Source of the DNA: Bacteroidota bacterium
GTDB taxonomy: Bacteria > Bacteroidota > Bacteroidia > Chitinophagales > Chitinophagaceae
Direction: 5' to 3'
DNA: 35,329 nt
Assembly: GCA_003175935.1 (NCBI GenBank)
Contig: PSRI01000233.1
Location: forward strand, 1 to 35,329
Shown here: positions 21,243 through 21,925 of the stretch, one piece after another
Numbering within the stretch: the first letter of the stretch is position 1
Layout of the letters: each line of letters starts with the position of its first letter
Notes under the pieces: generated by a model
Seen by the model: only the letters and a program-made list of their open reading frames with translations
Told to the model about the DNA's origin: nothing
Database searches by the model: none
Translations under genes and position numbers: made by a program

Positions 21243-21616
21243 GACTCGGGAGATTTGGCCCCCGGTCTCCTCCTCCGCGGTTTGGCGGGGGAGGAGAGGC
21301 TGAGGGTTGTTAATTAATTTTGATTCGTCTTTCATACCTGGTCCCTGCTGATTTTAATTCCCGTCTTAAATTCCTTCTTTGTCCTTTAATTCCTGTCTAT
21401 CGTTTAATTCCTCACTGGTCTCTGTGCCTGGCTGTCAATTTTTTGCTTTCTGACTATTCCTTCCTTTTCCTTTTTCCATTCTGGTCTTTCCGGTCGTCTT
21501 ATAATTGCTTTCGATCTTTTCCCTGCTTTTTCTGATCCTTTCTATCCTTTTGTTCTTTTTCGCCTTCTTTTCGTTATTCCTGATCTTTTATGCTTTCCTA
21601 TCTATTTACTTCCTTT
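21243..21616 (-). promoter_or_regulatory. Long purine-rich 5' leader of the padR-pspC operon
   Basis: From the predicted start site near 21616 to the PadR ATG the minus-strand RNA would carry about 370 untranslated bases. By hand count 189 of 240 bases in 21361-21600 are pyrimidines on the plus strand (79 percent), so the RNA is strongly purine-rich. GGAATTAAA-like units recur four times (plus-strand AATTC cores at 21356, 21369, 21388 and 21406). The tract starts at the promoter and ends near the hairpin, so it appears to be a leader feature. No plausible coding frame is seen in it on either strand. Confidence 0.5.
21266..21297 (-). promoter_or_regulatory. Stable GC-rich hairpin in the PadR leader
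   Basis: Thirteen-base arms at 21266-21278 and 21285-21297 pair with a single G-U and enclose a 6-nt loop (GGTTTG). In the minus-strand RNA the 3' arm is GGAGGAGGAGA and ends 24 bases before the ATG. There is no U tail, so it is not a terminator. It may be a translation control element or a palindromic intergenic repeat. Confidence 0.6.
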
Positions 21617-21622
21617 CTGATA

Positions 21623-21653
21623 CAAATGTAAACACTATTTTAATACTATGCAA
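21623..21653 (-). promoter_or_regulatory. Promoter of the padR-pspC operon
   Basis: Minus strand: TTG (21653-21651), 20-base spacer, TACATTTG (21630-21623), an exact match to TAnnTTTG. It is the best-formed promoter in the window, and transcription would start near 21616. Confidence 0.65.
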
Positions 21654-21925
21654 TACCAAGTACCATTTTTTTGTAGGTAGCTGGCAGAGACTATTATCCG
21701 TGTAAGCATAGAAATCAAGCCCAGACTGCATTTCAGGGAATTTTGGCTGTTTTTGGTATTTGCAGAAGATGTATAAATGGTAATATTAGTGGATGAGTGG
21801 CGAGAATTTGGATGCTGAGATGCTGACCTGCGGATACATGAAATTAAACAGACGGGTACTCTTATTAGGAGATAATCGTTATTTTAAAGGGGGAATTCAT
21901 CCTAAACGAAAACACCAGAGCATAC
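21654..21925. other. Intergenic region before the type IX cargo gene, nothing certain
   Basis: About 270 bases between the PadR promoter and the ATG of the secreted protein. A short frame at 21793-22017 overlaps the next gene and is not credible. I see no exact TAnnTTTG element for the plus strand, no RNA gene and no terminator. The secreted-protein promoter must lie here but cannot be pinpointed. Confidence 0.4.

Follow-up and report, generated by a model that had tools for sequence, protein, structure and literature searches.

A long, purine-rich and nearly unstructured untranslated leader upstream of a padR-pspC operon in Chitinophagaceae

The padR-pspC operon in the window (the whole stretch of DNA analysed, 35,329 nt, contig G000:C266 of a 4.43 Mb draft genome in 274 contigs, 87% complete) is preceded by a leader of about 375 nt, most of which is a purine-rich, U-poor tract that starts at the predicted transcription start; close to the start codon, the tract gives way to a hairpin. 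The tract is real, is rare in the sampled part of its genome and recurs in relatives, which belong to the Chitinophagaceae. The most suitable class for it is that of long untranslated leaders, of which it is an unusual variant. Our tentative explanation, in which we have less than even confidence, is that the composition of the leader rather than any motif in it is under selection, giving an expanded, structure-free and C-poor RNA with few start codons, which can be transcribed though it is untranslated and which feeds into a hairpin near the AUG. The features are listed in Table 1.

Table 1. Features of the padR-pspC locus, in window coordinates.
Feature	Position	Strand	Basis
Putative PadR operator, palindrome GGTACTTGGTATTGCATAGTATT	21642..21664	-	Position kept in nearly all of about 145 relatives
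Bacteroidetes-type promoter TTG-N20-TACATTTG	21623..21653	-	Sequence; spacing to operator kept in relatives
Purine-rich, U-poor, nearly unstructured leader tract, 301 nt, 78.4% purine	21318..21618	-	Maximal-scoring segment
Four GGAATTAAA-like units, imperfect ~18-nt tandem array	21353..21411	-	TRF and k-mer tests
Hairpin upstream of start codon (inner stem-loop 21297-21266)	21259..21306	-	Local fold, z -4.25
padR, 122 aa	20874..21242	-	Pfam PF03551, E 2.8e-17; start kept in relatives
pspC-type gene, 747 aa	18617..20860	-	Pfam: HAAS, PspC, LiaI-LiaF-TM, Toast-rack

The 747-aa protein has PspC, LiaI-LiaF-TM and Toast-rack domains above the Pfam cut-offs, the HAAS domain being borderline (26.8 bits against a cut-off of 27). 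With a PadR-like wHTH gene beside a HAAS/PspC/Toast-rack protein, the locus is a HAAS-PadR-PspC operon. Systems of HAAS, PadR-like wHTH, PspC and Toastrack proteins have been described by their proteins and gene neighbourhoods (PMC11237479), and the gene order found here, padR and then the HAAS/PspC/LiaF-TM/Toast-rack gene, is like theirs; the long leader sets the locus apart, since leader RNA goes unmentioned in the part of that description available to us. The earlier note knew of no such leader for PadR-PspC operons, and none was found in the literature covered, which was mostly open-access. The padR gene starts at ATG 21242, the window and the relatives agreeing on the protein start MNIENTQSQMRKG. 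A start at ATG 21335, which would give the longest ORF, was rejected, since the same-genus neighbour has no in-frame ATG farther up and the relatives agree on 21242. With this conserved start, the hairpin and the last part of the tract fall in the untranslated region, as the earlier note implied. A long leader between the padR promoter and the gene had been proposed, and it is indeed present: about 375 nt separate the predicted +1 from ATG 21242, while Bacteroidota leaders with mapped or predicted starts have means or medians of 24-65 nt (PMC6847099, PMC9723704), the medians for flavobacteria and Bacteroides being 24-32 nt.

The TACATTTG element lies at 21630-21623 on the minus strand, which places the predicted +1 at about 21618-21616. 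Together with the TTG some 20 nt before it, the element corresponds to the Bacteroidetes -33/-7 promoter (TTG about 20 nt before TAnnTTTG), as had been read earlier, and the position of this promoter is conserved in relatives. The palindrome that overlaps it has the family form GTACTWTGTRTTGCATAGTAC and is a putative operator, at which PadR would bind; the operon is probably autoregulated. Promoter and palindrome are kept nearly throughout the relatives, most of which have no purine tract. The suggestion that PadR binds the repeats of the leader is unlikely, since the conserved palindrome at the promoter suits the role of operator far better and the tract is missing from most relatives.

The purine count reported for 21361-21600 is exact: 189 of the 240 nucleotides, read from 21600 to 21361, are purines (A125 G64 C27 T24). 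The sharp change of composition claimed at the predicted start is also borne out, as the maximal-scoring segment begins 4 nt past the -7 element, that is at the predicted +1, and the DNA upstream of it is about 42-44% purine. Within an 818-kb sample of the genome (18% of it, both strands), the tract scores 51.6 against 23.4 for the runner-up segment, and the padR leader is the best 200-nt window, with a purine fraction of 0.81; the second-best window, at 0.725, is protein-coding. Of the runner-up purine windows, those inspected are K/E-rich coding DNA, and the other predicted long leaders sampled in this genome have an ordinary purine content (0.40-0.51), so a genome-wide trait of purine-rich leaders was rejected. 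The tract is not a dispersed repeat either: no convincing second copy turned up in its own genome, where the best match (35 nt) has an E of 0.007. A search with Rfam covariance models assigned the leader to no family at the gathering score and gave only a 17-bit chance match inside pspC.

A 240-nt stretch of the tract has a minimum free energy of -10.5 kcal/mol, compared with a mean of -50.4 (sd 8.2) for windows of the genome. Compared with its dinucleotide shuffles, the whole leader shows no extra stability (z +1.06), so the low structure is owed to composition. The same stretch contains 3 start triplets, compared with 12.3 in genome windows; YC dinucleotides have a frequency of 0.033 in the tract against 0.100 in genome windows, and in no part of it does C exceed G. 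The stable hairpin noted just before the ATG is confirmed: the inner stem-loop is strong, ends 23 nt upstream of the start codon and sits inside the longer pairing. A hairpin in the same position, built from other arm sequences (e.g. CUGCUUU/AAAGCAG, UCUCUC/GAGAGA), is present in most of the Agriterribacter clade. This conservation is read from individual folds, the MAFFT alignment of the hairpins being too gapped for pair counts, and the z-scores of single hairpins are mostly modest (-0.6 to -2.3; two reach -4.3 and -5.1, and L061 has +0.9). As a separate observation, a short inverted repeat (AATC..GATT or AAC-TCCG-GTT) abuts the padR ATG in L032, L033, L038, L054 and L065, where it is possibly a mini-hairpin at the AUG.

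Leaders were measured in relatives, first at 80 loci of one collection and then at 147 loci in all, which comprise 125 distinct leaders. Their length varies from 20 to about 580 nt, with a median of 110. Over the 125 distinct leaders, and with relatedness ignored, the mean purine fraction is 0.57 compared with 0.475 upstream, and purine content increases with leader length (rho 0.31, p 0.0004). The same-genus neighbour (G001) has a leader of 171 nt with a purine segment of 96 nt (score 11.0), which also starts 4 nt after the -7 element; between these two genomes of one genus, the middle portions resist alignment. Strong purine segments, starting 6-10 nt after the -7 element, are found in L044 (281 nt), L046 (175 nt) and L065 (150 nt); the one in L275, 240 nt long and starting at 7 nt, is weaker. 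Considering the window, L031, L044, L046, L065 and L275 together, the segment opens 4-10 nt past the -7 element and stops 42-76 nt short of the AUG. L044 and L046 form one group, L065 is a Segetibacter, and both groups lie outside the clade of the window, so that at least two further lineages have strong tracts from +1. For L044 and L046, too, the best 200-nt purine window in the sampled part of the genome (163 and 154 kb) is the padR leader. The earlier note would have given the tract up if closely related genomes lacked it or had ordinary composition there, and this is half the case: the neighbour has a shorter and weaker tract, and most other relatives have none. Its proposal that the tract is selected gains support from the recurrence of the same composition and edge in other lineages.

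Five of the seven leaders that have at least 180 nt and no ORF of 40 aa, a small set from about three strong lineages, have purine fractions of 0.68-0.74 (L071 and L095 are not purine-rich), compared with a mean of 0.57 for the 22 leaders of at least 180 nt that carry an ORF of at least 40 aa. This contrast fits a rule of "translated or purine-rich". In at least eight relatives (L217, L220, L262, L269, L287, L289, L290 and L299) a small gene lies between the padR promoter and padR, coding for a protein of about 60-65 aa with a C-terminal motif like [FL]SAADLWNIQRMRRVRVQRRY. A larger, secreted-looking gene, DUF4440/SnoaL-like by eye, occupies the gap in L284, L292, L296 and L215.

The earlier note had described four repeat units spaced 13-19 bases apart, and there are three exact copies of GGAATTAAA and one near copy, GGAATTTAA, with GGAATT at 21411, 21393, 21374 and 21361 and spacings of 18, 19 and 13 nt. 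TRF detects a tandem period of 18 nt, repeated 2.6 times, at 21365-21412. The array exceeds chance in composition-corrected k-mer tests (p=0.002 for 9-mers, 0.026 for 8-mers, 0.08 for 7-mers and 0.012 for 6-mers); a plain test for any repeated 9-mer in the tract is not significant (p 0.45), because low-complexity 9-mers dominate it. The array looks like a small local duplication and is confined to its own genome; the other purine-rich leaders do not share the unit, L044 and L046 having CAGG/AGGA-rich text instead.

In the explanation we prefer, selection on composition, the operon is probably autoregulated with an expanded untranslated leader. As no ribosome would cover these roughly 300 nt, selection may hold the tract poor in C and U, which would leave Rho without a loading site, offer few false start codons and keep the RNA free of structure. 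Polymerase would thereby reach padR, and 30S subunits could gather on the open single strand before the hairpin-guarded AUG, hairpin and leader together presumably setting the output level of PadR and PspC. The leader may have grown by local duplication of short purine units, of which the 18-nt GGAATTAAA array would be an example, while relatives whose leaders are as long often have a small, presumably translated ORF in this place. Rho is encoded in all five genomes checked and the tract has no C-rich, G-poor stretch, as would be expected of a leader that evades Rho. Protecting untranslated RNA in general cannot alone explain why only this operon has such a tract, because the other predicted long leaders sampled in the genome are ordinary. 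In Flavobacterium johnsoniae, whose mRNAs have no Shine-Dalgarno sites, structure and adenines near the AUG tune initiation (PMC6847099). Like those leaders, which have A-rich start regions, the padR leader would owe easier initiation to adenines and little structure around its start; it differs in that theirs average 33 nt (PMC6847099), while this one has about 375 nt, purine-rich from +1 and then with a hairpin near the AUG. Like riboswitches and other structured 5' cis-regulatory RNAs such as the Flavo-1 type (PMC9723704), it is a long untranslated leader of one operon, but its tract is unstructured, its sequence is not conserved and it has no Rfam match. It is conceivable, though we are doubtful, that such leaders form a type defined by composition, long untranslated padR-pspC leaders in Chitinophagaceae being purine-rich and U-poor to escape Rho and structure. 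Such a type would span +1 to about 45-75 nt before the AUG, equally long leaders elsewhere carrying a small gene. If true, this would offer a clear example of an untranslated leader selected for its base composition, one without conserved sequence or structure and hence invisible to ordinary searches. It would also show how the Bacteroidota, which do without Shine-Dalgarno signals, see to it that long untranslated RNA is transcribed and can be translated, in a membrane-stress operon whose control is poorly known.

A largely neutral origin is unlikely, if only somewhat so. Slippage and local duplication would have lengthened a weakly purine-rich leader, and transcription-linked, strand-biased mutation would have maintained it with little function. 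The wide range of leader lengths among relatives, which suggests that length is unconstrained, the presence of the tandem array and the unalignable middle portions are all consistent with such an origin. It does not account for an extreme composition with its edge at +1 recurring in separate lineages, nor for the lack of this composition in equally long ORF-bearing leaders and in the other predicted leaders of the same genome, and most of the tract is without a recognizable repeat. It is also rather improbable, yet worth serious consideration, that an RNA-binding protein uses the tract as a platform, reading its repeated short purine motifs (GGA, GGAAU) and thereby controlling how the padR-pspC mRNA is translated or how stable it is. 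GGAAT(A/T) units are repeated, with six in this leader and two in that of the same-genus neighbour, three RRM proteins are encoded in the genome, and ANGGA is mildly enriched in the tract (11 against 6.4 expected, p 0.033), an excess that is marginal. The repeated ANGGA recalls the leaders of CsrA targets, but CsrA (PF02599) was not found in a search of eight genomes, the window's own (87% complete) and seven related ones, and a CsrA-target leader was therefore rejected. Against a protein-binding platform in general stands the difference of the unit between lineages.

R-loops are favoured by purine-rich RNA on a pyrimidine template. The sense of the tract strand is the one that favours them, and the tract could act as DNA or as an RNA-DNA hybrid, be it by forming a triplex or an R-loop or by binding PadR at a second region that feeds back on transcription. 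We consider this very unlikely. The tract contains a single pure purine run of at least 12 nt (21 nt long, all others having at most 10 nt) and not the long uninterrupted run with mirror symmetry expected of H-DNA, so the triplex proposed earlier is weakly founded; moreover, the putative PadR operator is at the promoter, conserved where the tract is missing. Least probable, and largely refuted already, is that the tract is what remains of a small leader gene. Several relatives do have small ORFs in the same gap, but the longest ORF within this leader has 14 aa, the three frames hold no trace of a SAADLWNIQR-type protein, and plain decay would not yield 78% purine from +1.

Other padR leaders carry features of their own. 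A conserved motif GTGAGTGACACAA (longer form TACAAGTGAGTGACACAACGATG) is found in several lineages (L065, L071, L072, L283 and L286); a search of four leaders carrying it gave no Rfam match. Flavihumibacter-type leaders (L067, L070, L094, L096, L097, L099, L101 and L103) contain two to three copies of AACCTTATCC or close forms. The Ferruginibacter-type leaders L056, L083, L090 and L093 have an upstream ORF starting from GTATAGCCATGAA, the TGA of which overlaps the padR ATG, an arrangement that suggests translational coupling of this ORF to padR.
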